A stretch of DNA of 57,198 nucleotides, taken from the NCBI RefSeq assembly GCF_028693135.1, contig NZ_JAQUVZ010000021.1:1-57198 (forward strand), in the 5' to 3' direction. Position 1 is the stretch's first letter; the number at the start of each line of letters is the position of its first letter. The notes beneath the pieces were generated by a model that saw nothing but the letters and a program-made list of their open reading frames with translations, searched no databases and had not been told where the DNA came from. Below are positions 22,618-37,135 of this stretch, in pieces. Made by a program: the position numbers and the translations under genes. Origin of the DNA: Methanosarcina sp. (GTDB lineage Archaea; Halobacteriota; Methanosarcinia; Methanosarcinales; Methanosarcinaceae).

Positions 22618-24240
22618 TTACCCCAGAAGCACTTTCAGGTCTTCTTCAACGGTTGTGTTAGGCCTGATGTTGAAATTATCTACCAGCACTTTAAGGACGT
22701 TCGGAGAGACACAGGCCGGAAGCGTCGGGCCGAGGGTGATGTTTTTTACTCCCAGGCTCAGGAGGGCAAGTAGGACAAGCACGGCTTTTTGTTCGTACCA
22801 GGCTATGTTGTAGGAAATCGGCAGGTCGTTTATGTCCTCAAGCCCGAAGGCTTCTGCAAGCTTCTGAGCTATTACCACAAGCGAATAACAGTCATTGCAC
22901 TGTCCGGCATCGATAACTCTCGGGATTCCTCCAATGTCGCCAAGGTCGAGTTTGTTGTACCTGTATTTGGCACAGCCTGCGGTCAGGATGACAGTGTCTT
23001 TTGGAAGGGCTTTTGCAAAATCAGTGTAGTAGGCTCTTTCTTTGTGCCTGCCGTCACAGCCTGCCATGACCATGAACCTGCTGATCTTCCCGGTTTTTAC
23101 TGCGTCTATGATTTTATCCGCAACAGCGAGGGTTGCTTCGTGAGCAAAACCTCCGACAATTGTCCCGCTTTCCAGTTGTTCAGGGGATTTGCTCATTTTT
23201 GCCTGTTCGATGAGGGCGGAGAAGTCCTTTTTGCCGTCTTCTTTTTCATCTATGTGGGGGAGTCCTTCAAAGCCCACAACCCCTGTAGTGTAGATCCGGT
23301 TCCTGTATGAATCCCTGGGGGAAACGATACAGTTGGTCGTCATGAGGATCGGGCCGTTGAACTTTTCAAACTCCTCATTCTGCTTCCACCAGGCGTTTCC
23401 GTAGTTGCCTGCGAAATTACCGTACTTCTTAAAGGCAGGATATGAATTTGCAGGCAGCATCTCTCCATGAGTGTAGACATCGATTCCTGTACCCTTTGTC
23501 TGCTCAAGGAGCTGTTCCAGGTCCCACAGGTCATGCCCGCTGATAAGGATACCAGGACTGCCTCTTACACCGATATTAACTGCAGTAGGCTCGGGATTCC
23601 CGTAAGTTTCGGTATTTGCTTTATCAAGCAGGGCGAGGGTTGAGACGCCTTTCTGCCCGCATTCCAGAACAAGACCTATGAGAGCTTCTACTTCCACACT
23701 GTCGTCTGTTGTAGAAACCAGTCCCTTTTCTATGAAATCGAAGATTACTTCGTCTTTATACCCGAGGATATAGGCATGGTGGGCATAAGCAGCCAGCCCC
23801 TTCATCCCATAGATCAAAAGTTCACGAAGAGACCTGACGTCTTCGTTCTGCGTTGAATGGACAGCAACATCCAGACTTTCTATGTTTTCAGGAGTTACTG
23901 TAGCCACGGCAGGCAGGGCTTTTTCTGAGGAGGCCTGCTCAGTGGGCAGTTTTGCCTTAATAGAGTCCCGGATCTCAAATCCTTTCTGAATGAAGGATTC
24001 GATCTGTTTCCCGTCAAAATTGGTGTTTGTAAGAGTGGAAAAGAAGCTGTCAAGCACAAACCTGTCGGTTGTTTCTTCATTAAGGCCTGCAGCCCTTGCT
24101 TTCTGGTTATAATATGCAATACTTTTGAGGACATAGAGTAATCTGTCCTGAGAGTCTGCAACTTCTCCCTTCTTTCCGCATACCCCGTTTTTCGTACAGC
24201 CTTTTCCGGAAAGTGCTTCTTCACATTGATTACAGAACAT
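22618..24240 (-). CDS. hcp: hybrid cluster protein (hydroxylamine/NO reductase)
   Basis: A 540-residue Fe-S enzyme. The N-terminal cubane ligands are Cys3, Cys6, Cys15 and Cys21 ([20 protein letters not shown]), the positions known from Desulfovibrio Hcp. Hybrid-cluster ligands are visible as SGHDL (His), HGEMLP (Glu), TNCIV (Cys), TAGCAKYR (Cys) and QCNDCYS (Cys). Family knowledge: Hcp reduces hydroxylamine in vitro and NO in vivo, and protects against nitrosative or oxidative stress in the cytoplasm. I chose ATG at 24240: GAGGTG lies 8 bases before it, and family members start MFC; the GTG at 24252 overlaps that Shine-Dalgarno. No Hcr reductase gene is adjacent. Upstream on the same strand is a 57-residue protein duplicating its N-terminus, with a related promoter. 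Confidence 0.97.
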
Positions 24241-24382: not shown

Positions 24383-24420
24383 TTATGTGATATCAAATCA
24401 TATATAGCAAACAGTTTCGA
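24383..24420 (-). promoter_or_regulatory. hcp upstream element shared with the mini-Hcp gene
   Basis: Read on the plus strand, ATGTGA-TCAA--CATATAT--CAA-CAGTTTC-AA is shared with 25116-25152, upstream of the mini-Hcp gene. On the coding (minus) strand it contains CTATATATG, a probable TATA box, and lies about 165 bases before the hcp start. The surroundings are rich in GATACC/GGTATC half-sites, which could be operators. Similarity may reflect a duplicated promoter or common control. Confidence 0.5.
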
Positions 24421-24489
24421 AGTGGGTATCAGTATCGAAGCCGATACCATAGAAAAAGCGTATCAAGAATGGAAAGCGGAAAAGCACCG

Positions 24490-24690
24490 GTAAAAGGGGA
24501 AAAACTTAAAAAAAGCCTGAGAAAGGTTTGAAAAGAACCTGAAGGAAAAAAATCCGGAGAGAAAAAAAAGATTGAAGAGAAAAAAGATTGAAGAGAAAAA
24601 ATCCGGAGAGAAAAAAAGCCTGAAGAGAAAAAGAGACTGAAGAGAAAAAAAGATTGAAGAGAAAAAGAGACTGAAAAGAAAAGGTTTGTC
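24490..24690. repeat. purine-rich degenerate tandem repeat
   Basis: Runs of GATTGAAGAGAAAAA, TCCGGAGAGAAAAAA and ACTGAAGAGAAAAA repeat about ten times. There is no ORF. It lies between hcp and the mini-Hcp gene, and on the minus strand would be a pyrimidine-rich leader or spacer. Confidence 0.7.
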
Positions 24691-24746: not shown

Positions 24747-24920
24747 TTAATGTTTTTTCTTGAAAATGCCCATCATGCTTTTTAACCGGGTCGAAAAACT
24801 TAATCCACATTCTTTGCTCTGGTTTTCGGTTCTTGAGAGCTCCTCTCTCTGCTTTTTGCAGGGTCCGTTTTTTGTACAGCCTTTTCCGCTTAAGACTTCA
24901 GGGCACTGGTCACAGTACAT
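24747..24920 (-). CDS. 57-residue Hcp N-terminus-like Fe-S mini-protein
   Basis: ATG at 24920 to TAA at 24747. The first 22 residues ([20 protein letters not shown], then CK) copy the Hcp N-terminus, with Cys3, Cys6, Cys15 and Cys21 at identical positions, then diverge into a basic tail (REELSRTENQSKECGLSF ... MMGIFKKKH). GAGGT lies 7 bases before the ATG. All four cubane ligands are kept, so it could bind a [4Fe-4S] cluster like a tiny ferredoxin. It has no hybrid-cluster domain. It lies upstream of hcp on the same strand, behind a related promoter element, and divergent to ppcA. It may be a functional electron carrier or modulator of Hcp, or the decaying 5' end of a duplicated hcp. The intact Shine-Dalgarno and open frame favour expression. 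Confidence 0.72.
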   Translation of the reverse strand: MYCDQCPEVLSGKGCTKNGPCKKQREELSRTENQSKECGLSFSTRLKSMMGIFKKKH

Positions 24921-24950
24921 TTTTCTACCTCAAATGTTGTTTTGCAGTAT

Positions 24951-25032
24951 CTTTCCGATACCTTCTTTCTGATACTTCTTTTTGATACTTTCTGCCTAAC
25001 CTTTCCGATACTTTCTGCCTAACTATACTTCC
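24951..25032. repeat. short direct repeats upstream of the mini-Hcp gene
   Basis: CTTTCCGATA and GATACTTTCTGCCTAAC recur two to three times. They lie between the mini-Hcp start and its TATA region and could be regulator binding sites or a slippage-generated array. Confidence 0.4.
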
Positions 25033-25113
25033 TTTCCGGTGATTTTCTTTGGTTCATGAAGCACATGTTCAGAAAAGTATCTATTACATACCAGTATCTT
25101 TTATGTACTAATT

Positions 25114-25152
25114 CTTATGTGAAGTCAATGCATATATGACAACCAGTTTCAA
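25114..25152 (-). promoter_or_regulatory. mini-Hcp promoter element
   Basis: TTATGTGAAGTCAATGCATA and the following TATGAC--CCAGTTTCAAA match the hcp upstream element at 24383 at most positions. On the minus strand CATATATGC is a plausible TATA box for the mini-Hcp gene. The remaining intergenic DNA to 25357 is the ppcA promoter side. Confidence 0.5.
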
Positions 25153-25357
25153 ATTCGATACCTCAATGTCAACTTATTGTCAACGAAAACATTTATTTAT
25201 GAGTAAACGTTCTTTTCCGATATCATTTTGATTTTATTTTGTGGTTAACAATATGGCCACTAAGTCCAATAAGTCCAATATGACAATTAATCTGGCAACC
25301 GACAAAAATATGCAAAAATCTAAAATTTACCCTATTGAGCAGTGAGGGTTCAGTTTC

Positions 25358-26938
25358 ATGAGCAGAAAAACTACGTTTCCAAAAGTAATGTGTACCCAGC
25401 ACCCGGATTCTGCATCCAGGTACATCTCCACGCAGGAAGAGCCCGGGGAAGCAGTTGAAGCTGCGGTGGTATTCGGCTGTGACGAATATATGCCGGATTA
25501 TGAGGGAAAGGCAACTCCCTATCATCAGAATGTCCAGATCGTATCAAAATTCATAGAAGAAACAGACCTTGTGCCCGGAAAAGATTTTTTTATCACTCCG
25601 CGGGCTCCAAGTGCAGTTCAGGAAAACCGCTTCAGGCAGCTTATGGTAATGATGTCCATCGCCGAAGCCAACCACGGTGCCCTTGAATATTCGGATGTCC
25701 AGGCAATCAATGAATTCGTGCATCCGATGACAGGCACGGTCAGGGAAATCATTGAAGCCCAGCAGCATATGGCAGACGTAAGCGAGCTTGCAAAAAAAGA
25801 ATTCGGGTTTTCAATGGAAGTCCCGAGGATAATTCCCCTTATAGAGGATGCTCCTGCCCTGCTGCACGCAAAAGAACTTGCAGAAAGTACGCTCCTTGCC
25901 TGGAAAGAGCGGTTCGGGACAGCTCCGGAGAAATTCAGGGTATTTTTAGGCAAATCCGACTCTGCCCTGTCTTTCGGGCATGTGGCAAGCACCCTCTCAT
26001 GCAAATACGCCATAAGCGGGCTTTCCGAACTGGATTCAGAACTCGATATAGAAACAGGCATCATATTCGGAGCTGGAACGCTACCTTTCAGAGGGCACCT
26101 GGACCTGAAAAACGCGGAAAACTTTTTTAAGGAATACCGGGGAGTCGGGACTGTTACCCTGCAGTCGGCTCTCAGGTACAGCCATGAAAAGGGGGATGCT
26201 CAGGCCCTGGTCCGTCTTGCGGAGGCAAGGCTTCCGGAAGCTCCGAACCTCTTTTCTCCTGAAGAAAAAGAAGAGCTTGTAAACCTCATAGGGATATTCG
26301 GGGCAAGATACGCCCGGGTCCTCAGGGAACTGGCGCCCGCTATAGACAGGCTTGCAGGTCTTCTCCCCCAGCAGCGGGACCGCCTGATGCACAAAGGAAA
26401 AGGCGGCTATTCAAGGAACGCTCCTGACATTTCCGGAATTGTCCAGCTCTGCCGCAGCGACATCGGAAAAGAGCTAAAAGCCAGCATGCCTGCAGAAGCC
26501 CTGCATCTCCCGCGAGCGATCAAGTTTACCGGTGCTCTCTACTCCATAGGCCTGCCTCCCGAATTCATAGGTACAGGTACTGCTCTCAAAGAAGCCCGGG
26601 AAAAACTTGGCGATGAGGTCTGTGAAAGGCTGCTTACAAAATATTTCCCTTCCCTTGCGAGCGACCTGAGTTTCGCATCCGGATACCTGGACCTCAATGT
26701 AGCCTCCCGCTTCCTCTCCGGAGCCTGCCTGAAGGAAATCCAGAGAGATCTCGATGTCTTACGCGACACCTTCAGCCTTAAAGTCCGGCCCGAGCCTTCA
26801 TACCGCATCCTGCTTGAGATGATGCAGCCTGAACTCCTGCAAGCAGGGACCGCAGGAAACTGTATGGATGAGGAGGTTTCACAGCTCGTATGCTCGACCC
26901 TTACCAAAATGGGAAAAATCAGAAAGGCTCTGGGTTGA
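25358..26938 (+). CDS. ppcA: phosphoenolpyruvate carboxylase, archaeal type
   Basis: A 526-residue enzyme that carboxylates PEP with bicarbonate to oxaloacetate, feeding aspartate and the partial TCA pathway of methanogens. It has the archaeal-type PEPC N-terminus (KVMCTQHPDSASRYISTQEE), which differs from the ~900-residue bacterial enzyme, and conserved stretches FLGKSDSALSFGH, GAGTLPFRGH and KGKGGYSRNAPDISG. Length is typical for the family. GAGGG lies 10 bases before the ATG. It is transcribed divergently from the mini-Hcp/hcp pair; the 437-base spacer holds both promoters. Codon use is GC-rich and well adapted, as for a highly expressed housekeeping gene. Confidence 0.97.
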   Translation: MSRKTTFPKVMCTQHPDSASRYISTQEEPGEAVEAAVVFGCDEYMPDYEGKATPYHQNVQIVSKFIEETDLVPGKDFFITPRAPSAVQENRFRQLMVMMSIAEANHGALEYSDVQAINEFVHPMTGTVREIIEAQQHMADVSELAKKEFGFSMEVPRIIPLIEDAPALLHAKELAESTLLAWKERFGTAPEKFRVFLGKSDSALSFGHVASTLSCKYAISGLSELDSELDIETGIIFGAGTLPFRGHLDLKNAENFFKEYRGVGTVTLQSALRYSHEKGDAQALVRLAEARLPEAPNLFSPEEKEELVNLIGIFGARYARVLRELAPAIDRLAGLLPQQRDRLMHKGKGGYSRNAPDISGIVQLCRSDIGKELKASMPAEALHLPRAIKFTGALYSIGLPPEFIGTGTALKEAREKLGDEVCERLLTKYFPSLASDLSFASGYLDLNVASRFLSGACLKEIQRDLDVLRDTFSLKVRPEPSYRILLEMMQPELLQAGTAGNCMDEEVSQLVCSTLTKMGKIRKALG

Positions 26939-35200: not shown

Positions 35201-37006
35201 ATGACAGATTTTTTCAGAAATACGTTTGGGAAAAAATCGGATGATTTGTTAATTATTTTAGTCGTGGGCCTTTTCTTCACATCATTTGCCTCCTACTTTG
35301 GTATTTTTGAATCCATCATTTTATTTGTTGAAGAATACAGTAACCGTGAAATTGGTGGGATGCTTACTCTTTTGATTTATCTTACCTTTGCTTTCGGAAT
35401 TTTCTCCCTGCGGCGCTGGATGGAACTTGAAAATGCTCTGGTGCTTCAGGAGCAGGCAGAAGAGAACATCAGAGAGAAAGATAAAAGATACAGGGCTCTG
35501 TTTGAAGAGTCAAATGATGTAATCGCTATTCTTAATGAGGAAAAAGTCCTGGACCTTAATAAAAAAGGCCGCATTGCTCTCGGGCTGGGCAACGGGAACC
35601 TTGTAGACGTCTCATTGGGGACACTGGTGCCCAAAGAATATCTACTGACAGTCCGGGAAGCCCTGAAAGCCACTCTTGCAAATGGGACTTCCCGTTTTGA
35701 AATGAAATTTCAGAAACAGAACGGGGCTATTATTGATGTGGAGGTTAATTCCTCTTCCTTGAGCCTTGAGGACAGAGAAGTCCAGTTTGTTGTTAGAGAT
35801 ATAACTTCACGTAAAAGAGCCGAAAAAATGGAGCATGAAAGCCAGGAGAGGTTGAATAAAATAATTGACAATGCCCTTTGCGGGATTTTACTGGTAGAAG
35901 TTTCCACACACGAAATTGTGGAAGTAAATCCGGCAGCTGAAGAAATGATAGGGCTTCCGAAAGATGAACTCGTAGGAAATGTCTGTCATCAATTCGTCTG
36001 TCCTGCTGAGAAAAATAAGTGTCCGATAACTGACCTGGGGGAGACTGTCGACAGGTCTGAGAGATTAATGCTCAGAAATGGAAGAGGTGAACATTTATCT
36101 GTCCTGAAAAGTGTGGTCCCTGTAAAAATAGGAGGGAAAGAATACCTTATAGAGAGCTTCATCGACCTATCCGAACGCAAAAAAGCCGAACAGGAACTAT
36201 TGCAGGCAAAGCTTGCTGCTGAAAGTGCCAACCGTGCCAAGAGCGAGTTCCTGACGACTATGAGCCATGAACTGCGTACTCCTCTTTCAGCAATCATCGG
36301 ATTTTCGGATGTGATGCTCGGCGGAATGAGCGGGGAATTCAATGAACAGAATAAAAAGTTTCTCAACAACATAGCTAACAGTGGAAAACATCTCCTCGCC
36401 CTCATAAATAACATTCTTGACCTTTCCAAAATTGAAGCCGGCAAGATGGAACTGGATATGGAGATGTTTTCAGTTTCCGAAGCATTTAGCTACACCAGGG
36501 CTGTAACCTCAGATCTTGCCCTGAAAAAGGACATCACAATAAAATATGATCTGGTGCCTGAGCTTTCAATCTATGCTGACAGGATACGTTTTAAGCAGGT
36601 CATCTACAACCTTATGAGCAATGCCATAAAATTTACACCAAAAGGTGGATCAGTAGAGGTTTTGGCCGCAAAAGCAGGAGATTCTGTCAGGGTAAGTATT
36701 TCGGATACGGGGATAGGAATTTCAGAAAAAGACCAGAAACTCCTTTTCCAGCCCTTCATGCAGGTCGATTCCAGTATCAGCCGTCAGTATGAGGGCACAG
36801 GGCTTGGGCTGGCTCTGGTCCGGAAGTTCGTAGAACTCCACGGGGGCAAGGTCTGGGTTGAGAGCGAAACTGGAAAAGGCTCGACTTTTACATTTGAATT
36901 ACCTTTGAAATACAGAAAAATTTCCTACACATGCATAAATGGTTCAAGCATTTCCAAAAAAATAGTCCCGCTTACAGTCGAAAAGGAAGAAAAGGAAGAA
37001 ACTTAA
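35201..37006 (+). CDS. membrane histidine kinase (2 TM-PAS-PAS-HisKA-HATPase)
   Basis: A 601-residue kinase. Two TM segments (about 16-36 and 50-68) with almost no extracellular loop, a PAS domain (about 95-205), a second PAS (about 215-330) with cysteines CHQFVCPAEKNKCPI, HisKA with His356 in [10 protein letters not shown], and HATPase_c (about 455-570, with NAIKFTPKGG, DTGIGIS and GTGLGLAL). There is no receiver, so the partner is probably the receiver at 34512. The frame is open to 35015, but that part lies in the inserted element; the ATG at 35201 follows a weak GGGGA. The Cys-PAS, HisKA and ATPase domains are close to those of the kinase at 185, so the two loci are paralogous. The extreme C-terminus (EKEEKEET) runs into a tandem array. 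Confidence 0.93.
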   Translation: MTDFFRNTFGKKSDDLLIILVVGLFFTSFASYFGIFESIILFVEEYSNREIGGMLTLLIYLTFAFGIFSLRRWMELENALVLQEQAEENIREKDKRYRALFEESNDVIAILNEEKVLDLNKKGRIALGLGNGNLVDVSLGTLVPKEYLLTVREALKATLANGTSRFEMKFQKQNGAIIDVEVNSSSLSLEDREVQFVVRDITSRKRAEKMEHESQERLNKIIDNALCGILLVEVSTHEIVEVNPAAEEMIGLPKDELVGNVCHQFVCPAEKNKCPITDLGETVDRSERLMLRNGRGEHLSVLKSVVPVKIGGKEYLIESFIDLSERKKAEQELLQAKLAAESANRAKSEFLTTMSHELRTPLSAIIGFSDVMLGGMSGEFNEQNKKFLNNIANSGKHLLALINNILDLSKIEAGKMELDMEMFSVSEAFSYTRAVTSDLALKKDITIKYDLVPELSIYADRIRFKQVIYNLMSNAIKFTPKGGSVEVLAAKAGDSVRVSISDTGIGISEKDQKLLFQPFMQVDSSISRQYEGTGLGLALVRKFVELHGGKVWVESETGKGSTFTFELPLKYRKISYTCINGSSISKKIVPLTVEKEEKEET

Positions 37007-37135
37007 AGCCAGTATCCTTAAAGCCAGTATCCTTAAAGCCATTAACTTTAAAGTCAGTATCCTTAAAGCCATTAACCTTAAAGCCAGTATCCTTAAAGCT
37101 ATTAACCTTAAAGTCAGTATCCTTAAAGCCAGAAA
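37006..37135. repeat. 15-bp tandem array between convergent genes
   Basis: About nine units of CTTAAAGCCAGTATC or CTTAAAGCCATTAAC. It begins at the kinase stop. Because the unit is a multiple of three, both strands show repetitive long frames (LKPVS on plus, ALRIL/ALRLM on minus), which are artefacts. Confidence 0.85.

Follow-up and report, generated by a model that had tools for sequence, protein, structure and literature searches.

A small four-cysteine protein encoded upstream of hcp in Methanosarcina: a probable hcp-derived gene and candidate partner of class I Hcp

Introduction

The hybrid cluster protein (Hcp) is an enzyme that is thought to handle nitric oxide, and class II Hcp is associated with an NADH-dependent HCP reductase, Hcr, which is a flavoprotein of large size and contains a [2Fe-2S] domain. 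Class I Hcps lack Hcr, their electron donor is unknown, and their genes have no syntenic partner genes, which has been interpreted as a hint of a general electron donor (PMC10210160). Among the small archaeal proteins that might be compared with an Fe-S partner, sORF_06 of Methanosarcina mazei is a stand-alone protein with four conserved cysteines that is suspected of carrying an Fe-S cluster (PMC11456600).

Here we analyze a 57,198-nt stretch of Methanosarcina sp. DNA (contig NZ_JAQUVZ010000021.1, positions 1 to 57,198; hereafter the window) that encodes a full-length class I Hcp together with a 57-residue protein resembling only its N-terminal head. The gene for this miniprotein, here called the mini gene, was not described in the open-licence literature on Methanosarcina Hcp, M. 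mazei small proteins, and truncated Hcp or Hcp microproteins. We conclude that it is very probably a real protein-coding gene under selection and propose, far more tentatively, a role for its product.

The mini gene and its product

The mini gene (24747..24920, minus strand) is an open reading frame of 171 bp preceded by the Shine-Dalgarno sequence GAGGT (24927..24931, minus strand), which ends 6 bases 5' of the ATG and has similar counterparts in the orthologs. Translation confirms the original prediction of a 57-residue product with cysteines at positions 3, 6, 15 and 21, in the CX2C-X8-C-X5-C spacing of the Hcp head. The protein matches the head of hcp in a search of the whole genome (E=2.4e-7), profile-profile comparison of its residues 1-26 with Hcp gives E=2.2e-14 (hhalign), and residues 4-30 of the HCP structure 1gn9 in PDB are matched at E=0.028. 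This likeness, which is not accidental, does not extend beyond residues 1-26, and the score against TIGR01703 is 21 bits with a cut-off of 360.8, so that the predicted lack of an Hcp body is borne out as well. The miniprotein has the N-terminal four-Cys cubane motif of Hcp and lacks the prismane/CODH body and the hybrid-cluster ligands. Nor does it qualify as a classical ferredoxin, having neither the CxxCxxCxxxCP motif nor a Pfam ferredoxin match. One-domain zinc-finger micro-proteins are defined by two CPxCG-type motifs; the miniprotein has CDQC and GCTKNGPC, and no CPxCG. No Pfam match and no convincing match in PHROGs were found, and AlphaFold gives a model of low quality (pLDDT 57.5) in which a C-terminal helix is moderately confident.

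Residues 25-57 form a basic tail, and the net charge of the protein ranges from +3 to +8 among the intact copies; a fifth cysteine, C38, is not kept in the orthologs. The possibility that the tail is a leftover of the first helix of Hcp was rejected, its similarity to the Hcp segment following the head being no better than that of shuffles, as was an amphipathic membrane anchor, the hydrophobic moment being no better than in shuffles. The further claim that the length of the gene escapes the usual gene calling is doubtful, given that common gene callers take open reading frames from about 90 nt.

Genomic context and promoter

Downstream of the mini gene, on the same strand, lies hcp (22618..24240, minus strand, ATG at 24240), which encodes a full-length class I Hcp with its own intact four-Cys head. 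The divergent neighbor on the other side (25358..26938, plus strand), which we take to be ppcA, the gene for archaeal-type PEP carboxylase, marks the conserved site: in Methanosarcina the mini gene adjoins ppcA in a constant position. Across the orthologous loci the mini gene is typically on the strand of hcp, some 0.5-1.1 kb 5' of it; in G011 the two genes are on different contigs. In many genomes that lack the mini gene hcp adjoins ppcA directly; others have hcp at a different place or have lost it. One genome, G010, carries a scar of the lost locus, a ppcA fragment fused to a truncated hcp head (L059:4818-5250), and neither a full-length ppcA nor a full-length hcp was found in that genome. 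The hcp leader of G037 (L005:5330-5635) is taken up by a tandem repeat, CGGATTCACTAAAAAA, that is interrupted by an assembly N run.

Both genes are preceded by a conserved box adjoining a TATA-like box, TTYGAAACTGNYTGCTATATATG. In the mini gene the predicted promoter element is TTTGAAACTGGTTGTCATATATG (25131..25153, minus strand), with a GAAACTG box and the TATA-like box, and the same element, TTCGAAACTGTTTGCTATATATG, stands before hcp (24399..24421, minus strand). This element is nearly private to the two genes: with at most 3 mismatches it occurs at three sites in the 4.22-Mb genome, namely without mismatch at hcp, with 2 mismatches at the mini gene and with 3 at a further, weak site. Moreover, nearly all sites in the 31 Methanosarcina genomes precede hcp or the mini gene (L065-L097), compared with a single match in total for the reversed-element control. 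In M. acetivorans the only site that remains is the one at the mini gene. The position of the mini gene and this element together uphold the earlier claim that it lies upstream of full hcp behind a similar promoter. Sites that could mark additional members of such a regulon stand before a cupin-like gene in G021 (L101:1134-1156) and before a peptidase-like gene ahead of hcp in G026 (L098:1176-1198).

GTATC/GATAC boxes flank the element. The leader of the mini gene (24921..25130, minus strand) is rich in them and is the densest 240-bp stretch of the window in this respect; the mini gene and hcp leaders contain 7 and 6 such boxes per 240 bp, respectively, against a window mean of 0.45. A search of the literature returned no regulator of GTATC boxes. 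The GTATC cluster at window position 36900 was rejected as related because it is an unrelated tandem repeat; at 37005-37130 the window holds a tandem repeat of AGTATCCTTAAAGCC-like units 3' of a histidine-kinase-like gene. Given the common element, the box-dense leaders and a T-rich tract 3' of the mini gene (24520..24682, minus strand), which by its composition is a putative archaeal transcription terminator, the mini gene looks like a transcription unit of its own under hcp-type control. It is linked to hcp and, judged by the common sequence element alone, co-regulated with it, as would be expected of an Hcp partner.

Selection on the head and the tail

Codon tests were performed with kappa profiled on the six intact copies, taking codons 1-24 as the head. 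Omega is approximately 0.01 in the head and differs from 1 with 2dL=32.7 (p=1e-8); the constraint persists when M. acetivorans is added (p=2e-7). Any two intact copies differ in head codons 1-24 by 0-1 nonsynonymous and by as many as 7 synonymous changes, and because synonymous sites vary, selection acts on the protein. Furthermore, the reading frame is free of indels in all 21 genome pairs compared; flanking stretches of equal length have 48 gap openings on the upstream side and 84 on the downstream side. For the tail, omega is approximately 0.8 (p=0.33), so that constraint is not significant; an apparent constraint obtained with the kappa of the null fixed was rejected, since it loses significance once kappa is profiled. 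The strong evidence of constraint thus concerns the head only, and the basic tail of the original prediction is real and kept in frame, with no measurable constraint on its sequence and no significant amphipathicity.

All intact miniproteins have the six residues Y2, D4, P7, V9, P20 and K22, none of which occurs at the matching positions in the Hcp heads of 11 genomes. Within one genome, the DNA of the two heads is 67-78% identical. This divergence of 22-33% of bases, together with the fixed mini-specific residues, rules out gene conversion from hcp; the mini gene is not maintained by copying from its parent.

Distribution and origin

An initial contig scan yielded five loci, and the ortholog searches covered 31 genomes of the genus, 112 of the family and a 393-genome phylum set. 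Intact four-Cys copies are present in six genomes, four of Methanosarcina (the window, G007, G011 and G023) and two of a neighboring genus (G037 and G039); the 393-genome phylum search found no further orthologs. Several short frames were discarded: the 63-residue match in G064 comes from reading another gene out of frame, those of G148 and G279 belong to a separate duplication of the hcp 5' end, in G113 and G140 the hcp sequence goes on in a second frame, that of G230 runs into a contig end, and an isolated 30-residue head in G238 was set aside.

Every intact copy is in a genome with hcp, and none of the eight hcp-negative Methanosarcina genomes, a small sample, has an intact copy. Most relatives, including most of those with hcp, lack the mini gene, which indicates that Hcp does not need the miniprotein; the gene is dispensable, an accessory that lineages can lose and not an essential subunit. 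Degraded versions are found in three genomes: a relative that we take to be M. acetivorans, which has no hcp, carries C6R and G19E; DH2 carries C6Y; and in the metagenome-assembled genome G025 the start is lost and the frame shifted. Conservation and purifying selection across Methanosarcina, the check proposed with the original prediction, were borne out in the constraint on the head of intact copies and not in the distribution of the gene.

Mini-bearing genomes fall on either side of the midpoint root of the ppcA tree and copies occur in a second genus, so that an old origin followed by repeated loss fits the distribution best. Absence or frame disruption in close relatives, which the original prediction took as the sign of a decaying hcp copy, is indeed widespread; given six intact orthologs in two genera with the head under very strong purifying selection, these losses are better seen as lineage-specific.

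Function and alternative explanations

In the lineages that keep it, the mini gene is best read, from its sequence, as a neofunctionalised fragment of hcp. Presumably, a partial tandem duplication copied about 26 codons of hcp along with its promoter and leader; the duplicated head would then have gained a new basic tail. Like those of class I Hcp, the four cysteines may ligate a [4Fe-4S] cluster, and the miniprotein would be made whenever Hcp is made. Because the separate head gene shares the rare promoter of hcp and has been kept by selection, its product is a candidate helper of Hcp. We hypothesize that the miniprotein docks on Hcp, perhaps via the basic tail, as a small accessory partner. 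Under nitric-oxide or redox stress it would deliver electrons to the Hcp cubane or, alternatively, supply or protect that cluster. Taken as a whole, this scheme of an hcp-derived, [4Fe-4S]-binding electron or cluster partner has, in our estimate, somewhat less than an even chance of being right. The loss of the ligand Cys6 in M. acetivorans, where hcp is lost too, is in line with a partner of Hcp, and the genomes in which Cys6 is lost (DH2) or the gene is broken (G025) with hcp intact speak against one. The stronger proposition, that a head which was duplicated, detached and kept under selection now serves the enzyme it came from as a dedicated electron carrier or cluster donor and represents a new kind of redox microprotein, is doubtful. 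If that proposition is true, class I Hcp gains its first known specific partner; a selected, apparently co-regulated and syntenic four-cysteine miniprotein is a concrete candidate for such a partner. The mini gene would also exemplify a detached cofactor-binding segment of an enzyme that turns into an independent gene.

The miniprotein could instead be a regulator or sensor that tunes the hcp stress response, with an Fe-S head modified by nitric oxide or oxygen and a tail that attaches to DNA, RNA or Hcp. Predicted co-regulation with hcp through the common element and the GTATC/GATAC boxes, the positive charge of all intact copies and the concentration of constraint in the cluster head are all compatible with such a role, which we nevertheless consider unlikely: no DNA-binding fold or family match was found, the tail sequence shows no measurable constraint, and many genomes that lack the mini gene have kept the promoter element of hcp, so that the miniprotein is not needed for hcp control.

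It is rather improbable that the four cysteines bind zinc, or serve as a thiol, iron or nitric-oxide scavenger, with no specific tie to Hcp. For many small four-Cys proteins of archaea zinc binding is assumed, and the 21-residue head of the miniprotein stands without the Hcp body in which the cubane is normally enclosed. An example of such a zinc-binding assignment is the family in PMC6562870. Against this, the miniprotein has the cysteine spacing and neighboring residues found at the cubane site of class I Hcp, and its gene is tied to hcp by the promoter.

That the mini gene is a functionless partial duplicate of hcp, decaying and kept by chance along with its promoter, would account for its absence from many relatives, for the two lost ligands and the one broken frame, and finds a precedent in head-only fragments that arise as by-products elsewhere (G148 and G279). 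For the intact copies we strongly disfavor this explanation, and overall give it a slim chance: the omega of the head, the integrity of the frame across two genera, the fixed residues that distinguish the miniprotein from Hcp and the exclusion of gene conversion as a means of maintenance all run counter to decay.

Finally, a leader peptide or cis-acting RNA, whose translation or folding upstream of hcp would control hcp expression, suits the usual position of the mini gene but is hardly credible, because a promoter copy of hcp itself and the T-rich tract stand in between, hcp of G011 is on another contig, selection acts on the protein while synonymous sites vary, and no Rfam match was found.

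Comparison with known systems

A duplication of similar kind is found in another archaeal family of the phylum, where the hcp promoter and about 26 codons are duplicated in G279 (L131:3900-4770) and G148 (L132:3650-4290). The copies lie on either side of an inserted module, which on visual reading looks like an antisense toxin-antitoxin pair, and an HxlR-like regulator lies divergently upstream. These head copies are still close to their own hcp, and the start codon of the G279 copy is gone; they are a picture of the unselected by-product. The Methanosarcina mini gene may have begun in an event of this type and did not stay a by-product.

Of the described proteins, class I Hcp (prismane, hydroxylamine reductase; PF03063, TIGR01703) shares with the mini gene the cubane head (residues 1-26 of the miniprotein), the start context and the promoter element. 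The differences are in size, approximately 540 versus 57 residues, in the missing body and hybrid-cluster ligands, and in the new basic tail and six diagnostic head residues of the miniprotein. Hcr is comparable through the proposed role of dedicated electron partner alone and has no sequence relation to the miniprotein. Bacterial-type small ferredoxins resemble the miniprotein in being small, in having four cysteines and in being able, potentially, to accommodate a single [4Fe-4S] cluster; in place of their CxxCxxCxxxCP signature, the miniprotein has the cysteine spacing and sequence of Hcp. As for sORF_06, compared here by description only, it is reported to be conserved in the genus, with weaker homologues in the family (PMC11456600), whereas the miniprotein is absent from most Methanosarcina.
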